From NCBI RefSeq assembly GCF_023734095.1, contig NZ_AP024620.1:1794501-1858500 (forward strand): a stretch of DNA of 64,000 nt. Reading direction: 5' to 3'. Position numbers and translations under genes: made by a program. Below the pieces are notes generated by a model. It was not told the origin of the DNA. It saw only the letters and a list, made by a program, of their open reading frames with translations, and did not search any database. Below are positions 6,188 to 54,715 of this stretch, piece by piece (the stretch's first letter is position 1; every line of letters starts with the position of its first letter). Source of the DNA: Moorella sp. Hama-1. Its GTDB lineage: Bacteria; Bacillota; DSM-521; Neomoorellales; Neomoorellaceae.

Positions 6188-6811
6188 CTACCATGCAGCC
6201 TTTTTCAACGACCACTTATTCTCCCATCCGGTCCACAATGTTTCCACCGCTTCCACCAGCACCGCATCAAACTGGATGGCTTTGTTGGCTGCAACTTCTT
6301 CCCAACAGCGGTGCCAGGTCAAAGCCGGACGATATGGCCGTTCCGAGGTCATGGCATCGATGGCATCACATAAAGCAATAATCCGTGAGCCTAAGGGGAT
6401 GGTCTCGCCTTTTAAGCCGGCCGGGTAACCCTTGCCGTCCCACCGTTCATGATGATAAAGAACTAGTTGAGCTATTGGCTTCAATCGCGGCGATTTAGCC
6501 AAAATATTAAAACCTATTTCCGGGTGGCGCTGGATCGCTGCTCGTTCGTGAGGTAAAAGGCGCCCCGGTTTACGCAAAATCTGGTCCGGGACGCCAATTT
6601 TCCCAATATCATGCAAATGGGCGGCTATATGTATTTTCTCAAGTTCTGCGCCTTTAATCCCAATTCTCCTGGCCAGGTCAAAGGCCATATCCGCCACGCG
6701 TTGCGAATGTTCTTCACTATAAGGATCCCTGGCTTCCAGGGCGGCCGTTAAACATTCAATAATGTCATGGTAGACCCCATGGAGGTCACGCCCATATATC
6801 CAGGAAAGCAT
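6188..6811 (-). CDS. HD-GYP domain phosphodiesterase
   Basis: A 207-residue protein consisting almost entirely of an HD-GYP domain. HLHDIGKIG carries the HD pair, followed by LLPHERAAIQRHPEIG, YHHERWDGKGYPAGL (the GYP motif) and ALCDAIDAMTSERPYR. HD-GYP enzymes usually hydrolyse cyclic di-GMP. No sensor domain is attached. I chose the ATG at 6811, which has GGAAGGGG upstream; the frame is open to a GTG at 6892, but that extension overlaps the FeoB-associated gene and looks like intergenic read-through. It follows the feo genes on the same strand and could be cotranscribed with them. Confidence 0.85.
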   Translation of the reverse strand: MLSWIYGRDLHGVYHDIIECLTAALEARDPYSEEHSQRVADMAFDLARRIGIKGAELEKIHIAAHLHDIGKIGVPDQILRKPGRLLPHERAAIQRHPEIGFNILAKSPRLKPIAQLVLYHHERWDGKGYPAGLKGETIPLGSRIIALCDAIDAMTSERPYRPALTWHRCWEEVAANKAIQFDAVLVEAVETLWTGWENKWSLKKAAW

Positions 6812-6870
6812 CCCGTTTCCCCTTCCGGTTGTGAGAACCCCCTTTAATCGCCAAAAACCGCGGGAAGATA

Positions 6871-7008
6871 TTATCTTCCAGTTCTGTGACACCCGTCACA
6901 AGCTCCCCCGCAACCTGGGCAACCTGTTCCTCTCAAGGTTACCAGCAGATGCCGCGCCAGAATGCCAGCCGCCAGAATACCTGCTCCGGCTAAAACGGCA
7001 ATTTCCAT
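6871..7008 (-). CDS. FeoB-associated Cys-rich membrane peptide
   Basis: A 45-residue ORF directly downstream of feoB. It starts with a single hydrophobic helix (about residues 3-18, rich in Ala, Gly, Ile and Leu) and ends in a short soluble tail with four cysteines, CPGCGGACDGC, arranged as two CxxC pairs. Length, position and architecture match the FeoB-associated Cys-rich membrane proteins of Firmicutes, thought to assist ferrous iron transport or reduction. The feoB stop is 47 bases upstream. The gene is too short to be called by length-based ORF finders. Confidence 0.8.
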   Translation of the reverse strand: MEIAVLAGAGILAAGILARHLLVTLRGTGCPGCGGACDGCHRTGR

Positions 7009-32361: not shown

Positions 32362-32404
32362 GATACACTATTTCCCCATCCTGCGTAGGGAGCATTAGCT
32401 CGAT

Positions 32405-32645
32405 AACAAGCACCCGGTATCCTGGCTCGGGTTCACCGCTCCCCCACGCCTTCCCAGTCCAGCACCCAGCTCCTTTTACTGCACCACCCCGGGTACTTTT
32501 CCTACTAAAAGGAATTTACCCGTAGCGGCAGAGATCTTGCTGCGTGCCGGGCCAGTGGCCCGCTGTGGGGTCGCTCCCCCATACAGTGGCGCGACCGCGC
32601 CGGCTTTACACCGGCTTCCCTTGATGCCTGCGCTATTTTATTTTC
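32405..32645 (-). promoter_or_regulatory. Cobalamin riboswitch
   Basis: On the minus strand the conserved boxes occur in order: AAGGGAAGCCGGTGTAAAGC, then CCGGCGCGG, GCGCCACTGT, and after a variable arm GAAGGCG, GAACCCGAGCCAGGATACC. These are the B12-box elements of adenosylcobalamin-type riboswitches. It is the first regulatory element of the chelatase/importer array and should reduce its expression when cobalamin is abundant. Boundaries are approximate. Confidence 0.9.
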
Positions 32646-32717
32646 GATCGCTTAAGGTATTCTACATATCGTACCAGAATCCTGCCTGGCAGGATTTATT
32701 TTTTAATCGCTACATCA

Positions 32718-49495: not shown

Positions 49496-50794
49496 CTAAA
49501 AGACCCTTTCCTTGTCAGACCGCCATCTGTCAGCTTTACCGAACACCCGGACCATGTTTTTCCCCTGTCCCTTGGCCATGTAAAGGGCACTGTCGGCAGC
49601 GTCAATCAACTCCCCGACTGTGGCGGCATCCAGGGGGTAGGTGGCCAGCCCGATACTCACCGTCAACACCCGGCCCGGGCCGCAGCCCTCATTGTCGATA
49701 GCAGCGTTCATGATATTCCGGCGTACCCTTTCGGTTACAGCAGTTGCTTCCAGGGTGTTAGTTTCCGGCATGATCATGACAAATTCCTCGCCGCCGTAAC
49801 GCGCTGCTATATCGACCTCCCGGATGCTGGATTGGATGATGGCTGCTATTTTTTGGAGGGCTTTATCCCCCTGCCGGTGGCCGTGGGTGTCGTTGTAAAT
49901 CTTAAAGTCATCGATATCGAGCATGGCTAAGGTAAAGGTACGCTGGTAACGCCGGGCGCGGGCCAGCTCTTTTTCTAATAAGTCCATCAGGTGCTGGTAA
50001 TTATATAAACCCGTTTTGGCGTCAATGGTGGCCTGGCGTTTCATGGTCTCGTACAGCTGGGCGCGCTCAACGGCCAGGGCGGCATACCCGGCGATGATCT
50101 CCACCAGCCGTACCTCGTCGGCGCTAAATCCCCCGTCTTTTTGTAAAAAGACAGCGCCGCCAACCTCCTGGCCGATGACCAGGGGCAGGGTCAAGTCCCG
50201 CCCTGCCAGCCTGGCCGACTGCCCGGCCCCGGCTGCCAGGACTCCCAGCGGGGTATTATTTACCGGTGTATCTTCCGGGGTATAATTCCGCCATTCGCCG
50301 GTGCTGCTGACCAGGTACACGCCACCTTCGCAATGGAGCAACTCCCGCAGGTGCCTGGTAATGGCCCTGGCTGTTAGCTCAAGGTCCAAACAGGAACCCA
50401 ATTCCCTGGTCATGTCCTGGATTACCGTAAGCTCTTGCACTTTCGTTTCCAGGTCGCTGTTGGCGGCAGTCAATTCCTGATTGAGGGTTTCCAGGCGGGC
50501 AATAAGCCTGTCTTTTACCTCCAGGTATTCCCGGAAACTAAGGGCGTAGGCCATCATCACTTCCAGGAGCAGGTCGAAGGACATGAGAATTAATCCCGGT
50601 ACCCGAAGGGGTGAGATGTCCTGGAACATCTTTTCCAGGGCCTCCAGGTGATACTGGACCAGATCTTCGGGCCCAACGCCATTCTCCACCAGGGCTTTGC
50701 TCAGCTTTGAAGCTTCATAAAGGATGGCTTCACTCTGCTTGCGGCTATACTGGCGTAAGAGCTCGAGGTAGGCTTCCTGCCATTGTACTTTCAT
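49496..50794 (-). CDS. Diguanylate cyclase with RsbU-N and GAF domains
   Basis: A 432-residue enzyme making cyclic di-GMP. The N-terminal helical domain (ALVENGVGPEDLVQYHLEAL near residue 35) matches the RsbT-binding domain of RsbU; a GAF domain covers about residues 125-255; the C-terminal GGDEF domain has the active-site variant GGEEF (ARYGGEEFVMI). It is the last gene of the stressosome operon, in the place RsbU holds elsewhere. RsbT released from the stressosome is therefore expected to switch on this cyclase, as described for Moorella thermoacetica. Confidence 0.92.
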   Translation of the reverse strand: MKVQWQEAYLELLRQYSRKQSEAILYEASKLSKALVENGVGPEDLVQYHLEALEKMFQDISPLRVPGLILMSFDLLLEVMMAYALSFREYLEVKDRLIARLETLNQELTAANSDLETKVQELTVIQDMTRELGSCLDLELTARAITRHLRELLHCEGGVYLVSSTGEWRNYTPEDTPVNNTPLGVLAAGAGQSARLAGRDLTLPLVIGQEVGGAVFLQKDGGFSADEVRLVEIIAGYAALAVERAQLYETMKRQATIDAKTGLYNYQHLMDLLEKELARARRYQRTFTLAMLDIDDFKIYNDTHGHRQGDKALQKIAAIIQSSIREVDIAARYGGEEFVMIMPETNTLEATAVTERVRRNIMNAAIDNEGCGPGRVLTVSIGLATYPLDAATVGELIDAADSALYMAKGQGKNMVRVFGKADRWRSDKERVF

Positions 50795-50810
50795 TCTGGG
50801 ATGCCCTCCA

Positions 50811-51389
50811 TTACCTGGCGACTATAACGGCGACATCATCATCCCGTCGGCCATGCTCTTCCCCTATTAGCCGGGCCAGTTCCTGCGGGGGAAGGGGGGA
50901 ATTCACTAGAGCGGCCGGAGAAACCGCGCCTTCCTGAATACCGTCCGAGTGGATTAAAAAAAGATCCCCCTCCTGATATGGCCCCCGATCAATTAAAAGC
51001 CGGCGCGGGTAATTATAACCCAGGATACCAGGAGTAGTCAGAGGGGTTACTATCTTGCCGGCCAGGATCTGTAAAAGGATATTGCCCACAACGGCTGCCT
51101 GCCAGAGGCCCTTTTTCTTGTCAACCCGGCACAAGGCGGCAACGGCTCCCCTGGTCCCCATTAACCGTTGATGACAACGCCGGAATATGTTTTCCAGGCC
51201 GACATCCAGGCCGGTTTCCAGGCAAGCGATAGCTGCCGCCGCAGCCCGGGCGGCTTCTGGTCCGTGGCCAATGCCGTCAACTACGGCCAGGTTAAAAATA
51301 CCTGCTTCGTCCTTGACCAGGCAGGCATCACCGCAGGTGAATTCCCCTTCCCTGGCCCGGGTATAAACTCCTACTTCCAGCTCTTCCAC
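50811..51389 (-). CDS. rsbX: PP2C-type phosphatase RsbX
   Basis: A 192-residue SpoIIE/PP2C-like serine phosphatase. VVDGIGHGPEAA near residue 37 and the late HSDGIQEGA and RRDDDVAVIV segments carry the metal-binding aspartates. Short length and position after rsbT identify it as RsbX, which resets the stressosome by dephosphorylating RsbS and RsbR. It overlaps rsbT by 19 bases. Confidence 0.9.
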   Translation of the reverse strand: MEELEVGVYTRAREGEFTCGDACLVKDEAGIFNLAVVDGIGHGPEAARAAAAAIACLETGLDVGLENIFRRCHQRLMGTRGAVAALCRVDKKKGLWQAAVVGNILLQILAGKIVTPLTTPGILGYNYPRRLLIDRGPYQEGDLFLIHSDGIQEGAVSPAALVNSPLPPQELARLIGEEHGRRDDDVAVIVAR

Positions 51390-51778
51390 TTCCCAATCCT
51401 GATGGTGGTACCCCGGCCGGCCCGGGATTCTATGGCAAAGGTATCCATTAGTCGCTTAGCTCCAGAGAGGCCCGCACCCAGGCCATTACTGGTCGAATAG
51501 CCGTCCCTTAAAGCCAGCTCGATATCGGTAATGCCTGGTCCCCGGTCGCTGACGGTGATTACGATGCCCTGGCGTTCTCCCTCGGCAACCGCTTCAATAT
51601 CCACCTTGCCGGAACCGGCGTAAAGGACCACGTTGCGAGTCAGTTCCGAGACGGCCGTGGCTATCCGTACCTGGTCCACTGTGTTGAACCCTATTTGCCG
51701 GGCCAGTTCCCGGGCTGCCTGCCGGGCCGTAATTATATCATATTCGCTGGTGATAGGGAGGGTTTGCACAGACGTCAT
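51371..51778 (-). CDS. rsbT: Stressosome serine/threonine kinase RsbT
   Basis: A 135-residue GHKL kinase with the N box TAVSELTRNVVLYAG, G1 VSDRGPGI and G2 GLGAGLSGAKRL. RsbT phosphorylates RsbS and RsbR, then leaves the stressosome and activates a downstream partner, here most likely the RsbU-N-domain diguanylate cyclase. It overlaps rsbS by four bases and rsbX by 19. Confidence 0.93.
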   Translation of the reverse strand: MTSVQTLPITSEYDIITARQAARELARQIGFNTVDQVRIATAVSELTRNVVLYAGSGKVDIEAVAEGERQGIVITVSDRGPGITDIELALRDGYSTSNGLGAGLSGAKRLMDTFAIESRAGRGTTIRIGKWKSWK

Positions 51779-52146
51779 TTTGGTTCCCCCCTGGCCCTGC
51801 CTTTTAACATATCCAGACCCTTTTGCAGGTTCAAGGCCGTGGCCATACCCTGGAGATCCAGGCCCATCTCCGTTAGGGTAATGGCTACCGCCGGGCTGAT
51901 GCCTGTCAGGACAAAGGGCAGGCCCAGCAGCCCGGCCAGCCTGCTGATCTCCATGAGGACCCTGGTCACGAAACTGTCCACCACTTCCAGGGCACTGATA
52001 TCAATCACCAGACCCTCGCCGGCATCCCGGGTGATATTCTGTAATAATTCCTCCTTAAACTGGATAACGCTCTGGTCGTGGAGGGTTTCCTCAATAGTCA
52101 CCAGCCAGAAATTATCTACTTTAAGGATGGGTACCCGGTTATGCAT
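51775..52146 (-). CDS. rsbS: Stressosome STAS-domain scaffold RsbS
   Basis: A 123-residue single STAS-domain protein that forms the stressosome core with RsbR. The phosphorylatable serine lies in DISALEVVDSFVTRVL near residue 60. The ATG at 52146 overlaps the rsbR stop by eight bases; the frame is open upstream but that extension only reads the antisense-like phase of rsbR. It is translationally coupled to rsbR and rsbT. Confidence 0.93.
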   Translation of the reverse strand: MHNRVPILKVDNFWLVTIEETLHDQSVIQFKEELLQNITRDAGEGLVIDISALEVVDSFVTRVLMEISRLAGLLGLPFVLTGISPAVAITLTEMGLDLQGMATALNLQKGLDMLKGRARGEPK

Positions 52147-52957
52147 CGTCTCGTTCCACCTGTTCCAGCTTATAACCCAGCCAGCGAAAAGCCAGTTCCA
52201 GCCCGGCCTGAAGGTTATTTTTGGTAACAATATCCTGAAAGTCAATCCCCAGCCGGACAATGGTCTGGGCCAGTTCCGGCCTGATGCCGACTAAGATGCA
52301 GCGGCTGCCTAAAAGCCTGGCGGCCTTGACGGTTTTGATCAAGTGATGGGCTACCTGGGTATCCACCACCGGCACGCCGCTAATGTCGATAAGGGCAACC
52401 TCGGCCTGGTATTGGACGATGCCTTCCAGGAGATTATCCATTATTTCTTTGGCCCGGCGGGTATCGATGGTGCCGATTAACGGCAGCAAAAGGATGTCCT
52501 GCATTAAAGGGATGACCGGAGTAGACAGCTCCATTAAAGCTTCGTTTTGCTTCTCGATAACCTCGCGCTGGGTCTGCAGGGCTGTTAGCAGCAAGAAGGT
52601 CGTTCCTTTAAAGATATGTTCCCGCACAGTGCTTATATAAGGTACTGCTGCCTGGAGATCGGTAGCCTGATCCTGTAAAGTCCCGATAAAGCTATCCAGA
52701 ATTTTTTCCAATATTAGCTGGAGGGTTTCAATATGGTAACCCCGGGCAAAGAGTAGCTTAACTTTATCTGCAATTTCTTTCTCCAGCTCCGCCGTCGTAA
52801 AAGCAGGCTGCTCAATATCTGCCGCCAGGGCCAGGCAGAGATCACGGGTTAAACCGGGAATCTCGTTCCAGGGTAGGTCGACCCGTCCCTCTTTTTTTAA
52901 GAGTTCAATGGCAGCATTAATAATAGTTTCTGGTTCGGTTTCACCGAACACACCCAC
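52139..52957 (-). CDS. rsbR: Stressosome sensor RsbR
   Basis: A 272-residue protein with an N-terminal helical, possibly globin-like, sensor domain (about residues 1-125) and a C-terminal STAS domain (about 150-265) with DISGVPVVDTQVAHHLI, where the Thr is the expected RsbT phosphorylation site. It heads the stressosome operon behind a near-consensus promoter. The signal sensed is unknown; no haem-binding His is obvious by eye. Confidence 0.9.
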   Translation of the reverse strand: MGVFGETEPETIINAAIELLKKEGRVDLPWNEIPGLTRDLCLALAADIEQPAFTTAELEKEIADKVKLLFARGYHIETLQLILEKILDSFIGTLQDQATDLQAAVPYISTVREHIFKGTTFLLLTALQTQREVIEKQNEALMELSTPVIPLMQDILLLPLIGTIDTRRAKEIMDNLLEGIVQYQAEVALIDISGVPVVDTQVAHHLIKTVKAARLLGSRCILVGIRPELAQTIVRLGIDFQDIVTKNNLQAGLELAFRWLGYKLEQVERDDA

Positions 52958-52996
52958 GACTTTTTCCCCCTTAATCTGACATTGAGATACAAAGTA

Positions 52997-53025
52997 ATTA
53001 TAGAAGCGCCCTTTCTAGCCGTCAA
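52997..53025 (-). promoter_or_regulatory. Predicted promoter of the stressosome operon
   Basis: TTGACG-N17-TATAAT on the minus strand, about 40 bases upstream of the rsbR start. A vegetative-type promoter rather than a sigma-B type is indicated. Confidence 0.75.
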
Positions 53026-53347
53026 GAAAATTTTATCTTGATGGGGGTTATTTAATGTCCCTTTAATCTTTATGTTTTATATTTAACCTTAACATTCCCC
53101 CGGTTGAACTGGTTAAGTAAACCGGTTAAGCCCATATTTCGCACCCTGAATAATCATTCACGCGAATGCATAGTCATACACACTATTTGCTATTTGACGC
53201 CAGAAATCCCGATAAGCCCCGGTAAATATATGCCATCAATGCAAGTTCCAGGGATATTGGGTGTATAAATATAAAATGAGCTTGCATATCTATTCAAGGT
53301 GCGGAATACGGGGTTAAGTAAAGGAGAAAGAAAAGGAGGTCATCCCT

Positions 53348-53413
53348 ATGTACATGTATGTGTTTGAAGTTCTCAACAACCTGGCCATCCCGGTCCAGGT
53401 CCAGCGCCGGTAA
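53348..53413 (+). CDS. Predicted 21-residue peptide
   Basis: A very short ORF with an excellent site (AAAGGAGGT nine to ten bases before ATG), starting MYMYVFEVL and ending PVQVQRR. It is followed within 50 bases by a strong hairpin terminator, so ribosome site, peptide and terminator form a complete small transcription unit. The peptide has a hydrophobic/aromatic N-terminal half and a basic end. I do not recognise a family; a leader, signalling or small membrane-associated peptide is possible. Confidence 0.5.
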   Translation: MYMYVFEVLNNLAIPVQVQRR

Positions 53414-53460
53414 AAACGCGGGCCTTAGCCAAGTGCGGACTGCCCGGTTTTGGAACAGCA

Positions 53461-53496
53461 AAAAAATCCCTGCTTCTATAAAAGCAGGGATTTTTG
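53461..53496. terminator. Bidirectional rho-independent terminator
   Basis: AAAAATCCCTGCTT and AAGCAGGGATTTTT pair around a short loop, with T-runs in both directions. It ends the small plus-strand unit at 53348 and the minus-strand surface-protein gene at 53540. Confidence 0.9.
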
Positions 53497-53539
53497 CCGC
53501 TTTACGCGGCAGGTAAAGAGGAGGTCGTTGTAGTTGGCG

Positions 53540-54481
53540 CTAGGATGGAAGGAGTAGTTGGGGTAAAGGAGTAGTTGGTGTACTGGTACCTGTTGTTGCG
53601 GGAGGTGTGGGGCTGGTACCTGTCGGTACTGTCGAAGTTGTTGGACTGCTGTTAACCGGGCTTTCAGGCGCCGTTGTACCAGGTGGTGGAGTCTCAGTAC
53701 CTTGCTCTGCTTCGTTTTCGTTGCCTTCTTCAATATCAATGTCGCCGGTTGCGGGATCATAATTCACTTTATCTTTAAATACCTCACCCAAAAATCTCAA
53801 GGGTACAAAAGTACGGTTGCTGATTAATGCCGCAGGGACATCCAAATTTATTTTGGTGTCATTGACAGTTACTTCCGTACTCCCAGGTATAAGCACTACT
53901 GTAATTCCATTTTTTGTTATGGTTACGGTATTGGTTGCCGCATCCCAATTAACAGTTGCGCCTAGACCCTGGGTAACCGCCCTGACGGGGATAAGGGTCC
54001 GGTTTCCTTTAATCACCGGCGGTACATCAAATTTTATTTCTTTATTCTTAACCCGGATTCTACTTTGGAATTTCACCAGACCGGCATTTTGGGTTTCTTC
54101 CCTTACCTGGTTTTCTTCCCTCGCCTGTGCTTCCGGGGTAACCTGGAGCCCGGTAATTTCCTTTTCCAGGTATCCTTGCATTTCTTTTTCTTCCTTTGTC
54201 CTGGCCCCCTCCTGCGATTTTATTTCTTGTTCTTTAGGTTCGATTTCTTTCCCGTTTCTCGTCTCATCTTGATCTTCGGTTGTCCGATCTTCTGACTCAT
54301 CTTCTAATTGTTTATCTTCCCCTTTAACCTTAATCCCATAGTTAGCCCCTCCAGCGGTAACTACTGTATATTGGCCAGGACTATGGTTGTCATTACCATT
54401 ACCCGGGTTAGCATAAACTATGCCGGCCGGCAATAGCAGGCTGGTTATGGCCAGTGTGCTGATTAATTTTTTATACTTCAT
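53540..54481 (-). CDS. Exported copper-amine-oxidase N-terminal-domain protein
   Basis: A 313-residue secreted or wall-associated protein. The signal peptide ends near YANPG; residues about 50-130 form a very charged Glu/Lys-rich linker; about 140-250 carry two copper-amine-oxidase N1-type repeats (PPVIKGNRTLIPVRAVTQGL and AALISNRTFVPLRFLGEVF); the last 60 residues are Pro/Thr/Ser-rich. This domain is common in clostridial surface proteins and need not bind copper. Expression is controlled by a c-di-GMP riboswitch in its leader, so it is probably part of a surface or biofilm response. Confidence 0.88.
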   Translation of the reverse strand: MKYKKLISTLAITSLLLPAGIVYANPGNGNDNHSPGQYTVVTAGGANYGIKVKGEDKQLEDESEDRTTEDQDETRNGKEIEPKEQEIKSQEGARTKEEKEMQGYLEKEITGLQVTPEAQAREENQVREETQNAGLVKFQSRIRVKNKEIKFDVPPVIKGNRTLIPVRAVTQGLGATVNWDAATNTVTITKNGITVVLIPGSTEVTVNDTKINLDVPAALISNRTFVPLRFLGEVFKDKVNYDPATGDIDIEEGNENEAEQGTETPPPGTTAPESPVNSSPTTSTVPTGTSPTPPATTGTSTPTTPLPQLLLPS

Positions 54482-54504
54482 CCAGCATACCCCTCTGTAA
54501 AAAT

Positions 54505-54540
54505 TTTAGGACAACCCGCCTCAGCCTGGGTTGCCCGTTA
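54505..54540 (-). terminator. Attenuator hairpin of the c-di-GMP riboswitch
   Basis: Minus-strand GGGCAACCC and GGGTTGTCC form a stem, followed by TAAAATTTTT. The first arm could instead pair with the GGGTTGCC at the 3' end of the aptamer, giving the alternative fold expected of an expression platform. Confidence 0.65.
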
Positions 54541-54564
54541 TCGCCAAAAAATTTCAATATGGCT

Positions 54565-54660
54565 TACCCGGCAACCCGGCTGCCATAGCCTGTCAAGGCT
54601 TTAGGCCCGTGGCTTTGCGCCCCCGCCTTTCGGTCGGGTTCGCCCTTTGCGGCTCTTAAA
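54565..54660 (-). promoter_or_regulatory. Cyclic di-GMP-I riboswitch (GEMM-I)
   Basis: On the minus strand the aptamer reads GCCGCAAAGGGCGAACC, a GAAA tetraloop (ACCGAAAGGCGG), GGGCGCAAAGCCACGGG, then CCTAA and a second arm with CAGCCGGGTTGCC. These are the conserved GEMM-I boxes, including both CGCAAAG segments and the tetraloop-receptor pieces. It controls the surface-protein gene downstream, and lies about 4 kb from a diguanylate cyclase gene. Confidence 0.9.
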
Positions 54661-54715
54661 AAGAATCATCGGCATATCTAATAATTTCTTGACGGCCTGG
54701 CAGCAAATTAATTAT

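Follow-up and report, generated by a model that had tools for sequence, protein, structure and literature searches.

Stressosomes are complexes of approximately 1.5 MDa that are phosphorylated by RsbT. The Bacillus subtilis stressosome/sigma-B pathway is composed of RsbR, RsbS, RsbT, and RsbX modules and an RsbT partner that bears an RsbU_N domain, this effector being a PP2C phosphatase. Among the closest described systems is the Moorella thermoacetica stressosome with the diguanylate cyclase MtG, encoded in the order rsbR, rsbS, rsbT, rsbX, and RsbU_N-GAF-GGDEF cyclase. There, GGDEF activity is governed by RsbT and by the N-terminal domain of RsbU (Quin et al. 2012, as related in PMC12143880 and PMC4976288), and the wiring of a stressosome to a cyclase is thus already known from this species. 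On the side of the c-di-GMP response, the class I riboswitches of Clostridioides difficile (e.g. Cd1 before flgB) are uniformly OFF switches, and some other class I riboswitches, such as Bc2 of B. thuringiensis, are ON switches (PMC6366702).

We analysed a 64,000-nucleotide stretch of the Moorella sp. Hama-1 genome (the window), in which a sequence-only reading had described a stressosome, a c-di-GMP synthase, and a c-di-GMP riboswitch target within 5 kb as a suspected local circuit. All of the parts that it named are found in the window by Pfam and Rfam searches. In our preferred interpretation, to which we assign a probability of roughly 0.78, they belong instead to two separately working and individually known modules that are neighbours by an accident of gene order and are linked via the global c-di-GMP pool.

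The stressosome-cyclase operon

The stressosome genes form a minus-strand operon with the order rsbR-rsbS-rsbT-rsbX-DGC (49496-52957), and two predicted elements separate it from the surface-protein gene:

49496..50794, minus strand: diguanylate cyclase (DGC, MtG-like), RsbU_N-GAF-GGDEF (Pfam; alignment; sole RsbU_N protein of the genome)
50811..51389, minus strand: rsbX-like PP2C/SpoIIE phosphatase, in the RsbX position (Pfam)
51371..51778, minus strand: rsbT, switch kinase (HATPase) (Pfam; alignment)
51775..52146, minus strand: rsbS, STAS scaffold (Pfam; PDB 2vy9 match)
52139..52957, minus strand: rsbR, STAS sensor/scaffold (Pfam; orthologues)
52997..53025, minus strand: predicted rsbR-operon promoter, sigma-70-type, TTGACG-17-TATAAT (11/12 matches; consensus match only)
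53462..53495, no strand assigned: terminator-like 15-bp hairpin between the surface-protein gene and the stressosome operon (sequence; kept in the close sister genome G008)

The RsbR and RsbS STAS proteins and the RsbT kinase of an RsbRST stressosome are therefore all encoded in a single operon. RsbS matches M. thermoacetica RsbS (PDB 2vy9) with an E-value of 4.7e-60 and 103/121 identical residues, and the expected Ser/Thr positions for phosphorylation by RsbT seem, by eye, to be retained. Since the RsbS of a related genome (G005) is identical to 2vy9 at 121/121 residues, we take G005 to stand for M. thermoacetica and the window to come from a different Moorella species.

The cyclase, encoded after rsbX, joins an RsbU_N domain to a GGDEF domain (Pfam E-values: RsbU_N 4.4e-19, GAF_2 1.3e-6, GGDEF 1.6e-45) and is 74% identical to the G005 cyclase. 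In an alignment its GG[DE]EF active site is intact (GGEEF, residues 334-338), and an inhibitory RxxD I-site is present at residues 325-328 (motif identified by eye). A genome search returned no second RsbU_N protein, and for this reason the cyclase, and not a sigma-B phosphatase as in B. subtilis, is read as the partner of RsbT. This result bears out the sequence-only reading on two points, namely that the stressosome acts through an RsbU_N/GAF/GGDEF cyclase and that the arrangement is that of M. thermoacetica: gene content and order are the same as in the published system (Quin et al. 2012, to the extent related in the same two articles). A stressosome-to-cyclase output in the window species is well supported by domain content, and activation of this cyclase by RsbT would be expected by analogy. 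The upstream side of rsbR differs: in G005 it is occupied by genes for an exported PepSY protein and a histidine kinase/response regulator pair, and in the window by the surface-protein gene and its riboswitch.

Such an output might still leave the surface-protein gene untouched, if too little c-di-GMP were made by the cyclase or if it were made while the sigma-28-type promoter described below is silent. The genome encodes eight GGDEF proteins, seven of them besides the stressosome cyclase, and the I-site would limit the output of the latter; set against this are the GGEEF motif, which has been kept, and the retention of a complete stressosome operon. We regard a stressosome that never affects the surface gene as quite unlikely.

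Shared transcription of the two units was considered and appears to be ruled out by the predicted terminator at 53462-53495 and the near-consensus promoter before rsbR. A riboswitch in the rsbR leader, which would suggest operon feedback, was sought, and none was found in the window. A 21-codon open reading frame (MYMYVFEVLNNLAIPVQVQRR, 53348-53413, plus strand) with a strong ribosome-binding site lies between the surface-protein gene and rsbR; it is absent from the corresponding place in G008 and is without conservation there.

The riboswitch leader of the surface-protein gene

Upstream of the operon, the second unit consists of a single gene and a leader with the following features:

54666..54692, minus strand: predicted sigma-28/SigD-type promoter, TCAA-N15-GCCGATGA (aptamer begins 11 nt downstream; the genome encodes a FliA-type sigma factor)
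54567..54654, minus strand: c-di-GMP-I (GEMM-I) riboswitch aptamer (Rfam RF01051, 78.9 bits)
54570..54579, minus strand: predicted antiterminator strand, the aptamer 3' strand CCGGGUUGCC (complementary to the 5' arm of the terminator)
54499..54536, minus strand: predicted terminator, GGGCAACCC...GGGUUGUCC then UAAAAUUUUU (leader sequence, alignment, folding)
53540..54481, minus strand: gene for a probably exported Cu_amine_oxidN1 protein, the predicted riboswitch target (Pfam 1.5e-35; orthologues)

The RF01051 match spans the entire model (1-87 of 87) with an E-value of 7.6e-14 and a score far above the gathering threshold of 35 bits. On the basis of this covariance-model score the element is a c-di-GMP-I aptamer, predicted to bind c-di-GMP. 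The N-terminus of the gene product resembles a signal peptide by eye. Thus, of the GEMM-I riboswitch with an exported surface protein described in the sequence-only reading, the aptamer holds and export is likely, and attachment to the surface is putative.

An attenuator had also been claimed. The stretch separating the aptamer from the gene contains a hairpin (54509-54536) with a U-rich tail after it, which fits this description, but in the window four As displace the U tract, and this tract is non-canonical in both the window's genome (G000) and G008. The hairpin itself (GGGCAAC...GGGUUGUC) is conserved in six orthologues, of which G003 and G010 have a long U tract, and CCGGGUUGCC at 54570-54579 is complementary to its 5' arm GGGCAACCC (54528-54536). 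In folding predictions for these six orthologues, the aptamer plus terminator and the antiterminator are mutually exclusive, as would be expected of an expression platform: left unconstrained, the leader takes the antiterminator as its minimum-energy structure, by a margin of 2.4-9.5 kcal/mol over the best aptamer-enforced fold. When the aptamer is enforced, the terminator forms in G008, G005, and G003 and fails to form in G000, G004, and G010, where other pairings win. Because the terminator forms in only three of the six aptamer-enforced folds, an OFF switch is the better-supported reading of this leader, short of demonstrated. The predicted direction agrees with that of the C. difficile class I riboswitches, which resemble this leader in the order of class I aptamer and terminator and in their link to motility. 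In contrast to Cd1, this leader has one exported Cu_amine_oxidN1 protein as its sole predicted target, and a sigma-28-type promoter of its own lies directly before the aptamer. In a further genome (G011, locus L117), the aptamer upstream of the surface-gene orthologue seems reduced to its first half, followed by a terminator; by eye, this appears to be a decayed riboswitch.

The putative promoter is an exact match to a sigma-28 consensus. Boxes of the TAAA-N15-GCCGATAW type stand at the right distance, the start site being a prediction, and the genome encodes a FliA-type sigma factor that scores above the curated cut-off. The block is found at an equal distance from the aptamer in G008, G005, G004, G003, and G010 (looser in G012), with upstream sequence that fails to align across the orthologues. 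The box was spotted post hoc, and the pattern alone is unspecific genome-wide (220 sites with one mismatch allowed versus 133 for a reversed control); it is position and conservation, not the pattern, that make the promoter credible and suggest that sigma-28 is used at the surface gene.

Genome-wide, about nine c-di-GMP-I aptamers score over the cut-off, along with one weak match. Judged from the downstream open reading frames, the others precede two HD-GYP-type genes, two chemoreceptor-like genes, one GspF/PilC-like gene, and one flagellar rod-like gene (one HD-GYP-type target is confirmed as HD by Pfam; the chemoreceptor, GspF/PilC, and flagellar rod names were given by eye only), placing the surface gene as one member of a motility/surface set. 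An HD-GYP phosphodiesterase gene at 6188 had been noted in the same window as the proposed circuit; an HD-GYP-like gene is indeed present (6188-6892, motif by eye), but at about 43 kb from the operon it is no neighbour. The window also contains a cobalamin riboswitch (32395-32667, minus strand, 74.7 bits, Rfam).

Conservation and chance of the adjacency

If the stressosome-cyclase and the riboswitch gene had been selected as one acting unit, their neighbourhood should be kept among relatives that have both parts. It is not. The riboswitch-surface-gene pair is found together in G000, G008 (surface protein 92% identical), G005, G004, G003, G010, and probably G012, and lies beside the stressosome in G000 and its sister G008 only. 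In G005 the aptamer (457331-457418) and gene (457502-458362) are approximately 960 kb from the stressosome (1415-1419 kb). In G010 the pair is at 33 kb and the stressosome, of a second lineage (lineage B, see below), at 1835 kb, a separation of approximately 1.8 Mb; in G004 the pair is on contig C12 and a lineage-B stressosome on C32. In G003 the pair is on contig C4, and a search of that genome for RsbR and RsbT matches found none. The G004 pair shares its OsmC/SWIM neighbourhood with the pair in the window and adjoins the orthologue of window gene 41014 without an intervening stressosome; the stressosome block in the window lineage hence sits where G004 has none, an arrangement that either stressosome loss in G004 or gain in the window line would explain equally well in the present comparison. 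The pair and its promoter are conserved independently of stressosome position, and the conservation proposed as a check on the local circuit turned out negative.

Proximity can be weighed against chance. In the window genome, the chance probability that any of the 8 GGDEF genes falls within 5.1 kb of any of the 9 c-di-GMP-I aptamers is 0.20; for the stressosome DGC alone p = 0.026, which speaks for the local circuit. Among Moorellaceae other than G000, four of nine stressosome carriers (G008, G009, G010, G017) have an aptamer within 6 kb, with 0.37 expected (p = 0.0003 if the loci are independent). G008 is a repeat of the window event, and a single arrangement is common to G009, G010, and G017; counted this way, the four loci come down to roughly two independent events, which differ in their target genes, and the probability of two or more events is 0.05. 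At 80 further RsbT loci from other genomes, no c-di-GMP-I aptamer was found within 10 kb, and other loci of the phylum gave weak or unrelated aptamer matches only. An automatic count of GGDEF genes near RsbT (52 loci) was dropped as a statistic, as it includes RsbU-type phosphatases matched via RsbU_N.

Together with separate predicted promoters, an intervening terminator, and a diffusible messenger shared by eight GGDEF genes and about nine riboswitches, the synteny comparison largely refutes the local circuit, and we consider a selected local unit very unlikely.

Lineage-B stressosomes and a shared c-di-GMP pool

The lineage-B stressosomes of the relatives have an RsbR about 40% identical to that of the window lineage (lineage A). 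Their genes are ordered as in lineage A, and the last one encodes a short cyclase of approximately 265 residues. The N-terminus of this cyclase is below the Pfam cut-off for RsbU_N. A profile comparison with the lineage-A cyclase N-terminus (E 4.6e-5, probability 69%) makes a relationship to RsbU_N likely, not certain. Lineage B is present in many families of the phylum.

At three lineage-B loci, in G009 (L022), G010 (L023), and G017 (L016), a c-di-GMP-I aptamer lies within 1 kb of rsbR, divergent from it and before an HD-domain gene. The HD-domain proteins of G010 and G017 have weak CBS matches, and the gene in G009 lacks its 5' end. Further aptamers precede a FapA gene and an MCP-like gene at L016, and G002 has a shortened aptamer beside a cyclase copy. 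Taken with G000/G008, the three loci suggest that adjacency may not be wholly random. Moorellaceae stressosome-cyclase operons might have repeatedly gained riboswitch-gene neighbours, giving a stress-messenger-response module with local feedback or immediate output whose targets would be the surface protein in lineage A and the CBS/HD-domain protein divergent from rsbR in lineage B (in G017 also FapA and a chemoreceptor); we think this unlikely.

One candidate for a riboswitch in an rsbR leader (G288, L028:8382-8474, with a terminator directly before rsbR) was rejected: it scores 28.3 bits, below the Rfam gathering threshold of 35, and is absent in the sister G265. Lineage-B operons from three families (L016, L023, L024, L030, L031, L034) each have a soluble chemoreceptor gene of a single type no more than 10 kb away, and a stressosome-chemotaxis link is possible. 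Six lineage-B stressosomes (L013, L017, L018, L021, L035, L058) have as neighbour a conserved KaiC-like gene, with another GGDEF gene after it.

Under our preferred interpretation of two modules sharing a messenger, a functional link via the c-di-GMP pool is likely and independent of proximity. Upon stress, the RsbR/RsbS/RsbT stressosome would release RsbT, with RsbX resetting the system, and freed RsbT would engage the RsbU_N domain of the cyclase and raise c-di-GMP. Transcription of the surface gene would start at a sigma-28-type promoter of its own. In the absence of c-di-GMP, pairing of the aptamer 3' strand with the 5' arm of the terminator would allow the gene to be read; with c-di-GMP, aptamer and terminator would form and transcription would stop. 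Stress would in this way switch off the surface gene with the genome's other c-di-GMP-I targets via the common pool.

New here are the sigma-28-type promoter, the antiterminator/terminator switch, both as predictions, the set of about nine riboswitches genome-wide, and the lineage-B survey; worth keeping are the conserved leader of the exported-protein gene, with its sigma-28-type promoter and predicted OFF riboswitch, and the wide occurrence of lineage B. With the window, the published stressosome-to-c-di-GMP wiring extends to a second Moorella species, for which concrete candidate downstream genes can now be named. That a conserved exported protein should have both a sigma-28 box and an OFF-type riboswitch points to possible repression of a late motility-class surface gene by stress, via c-di-GMP, and the breadth of lineage B suggests that cyclase output from stressosomes may be commoner in the phylum than the single published example would indicate.
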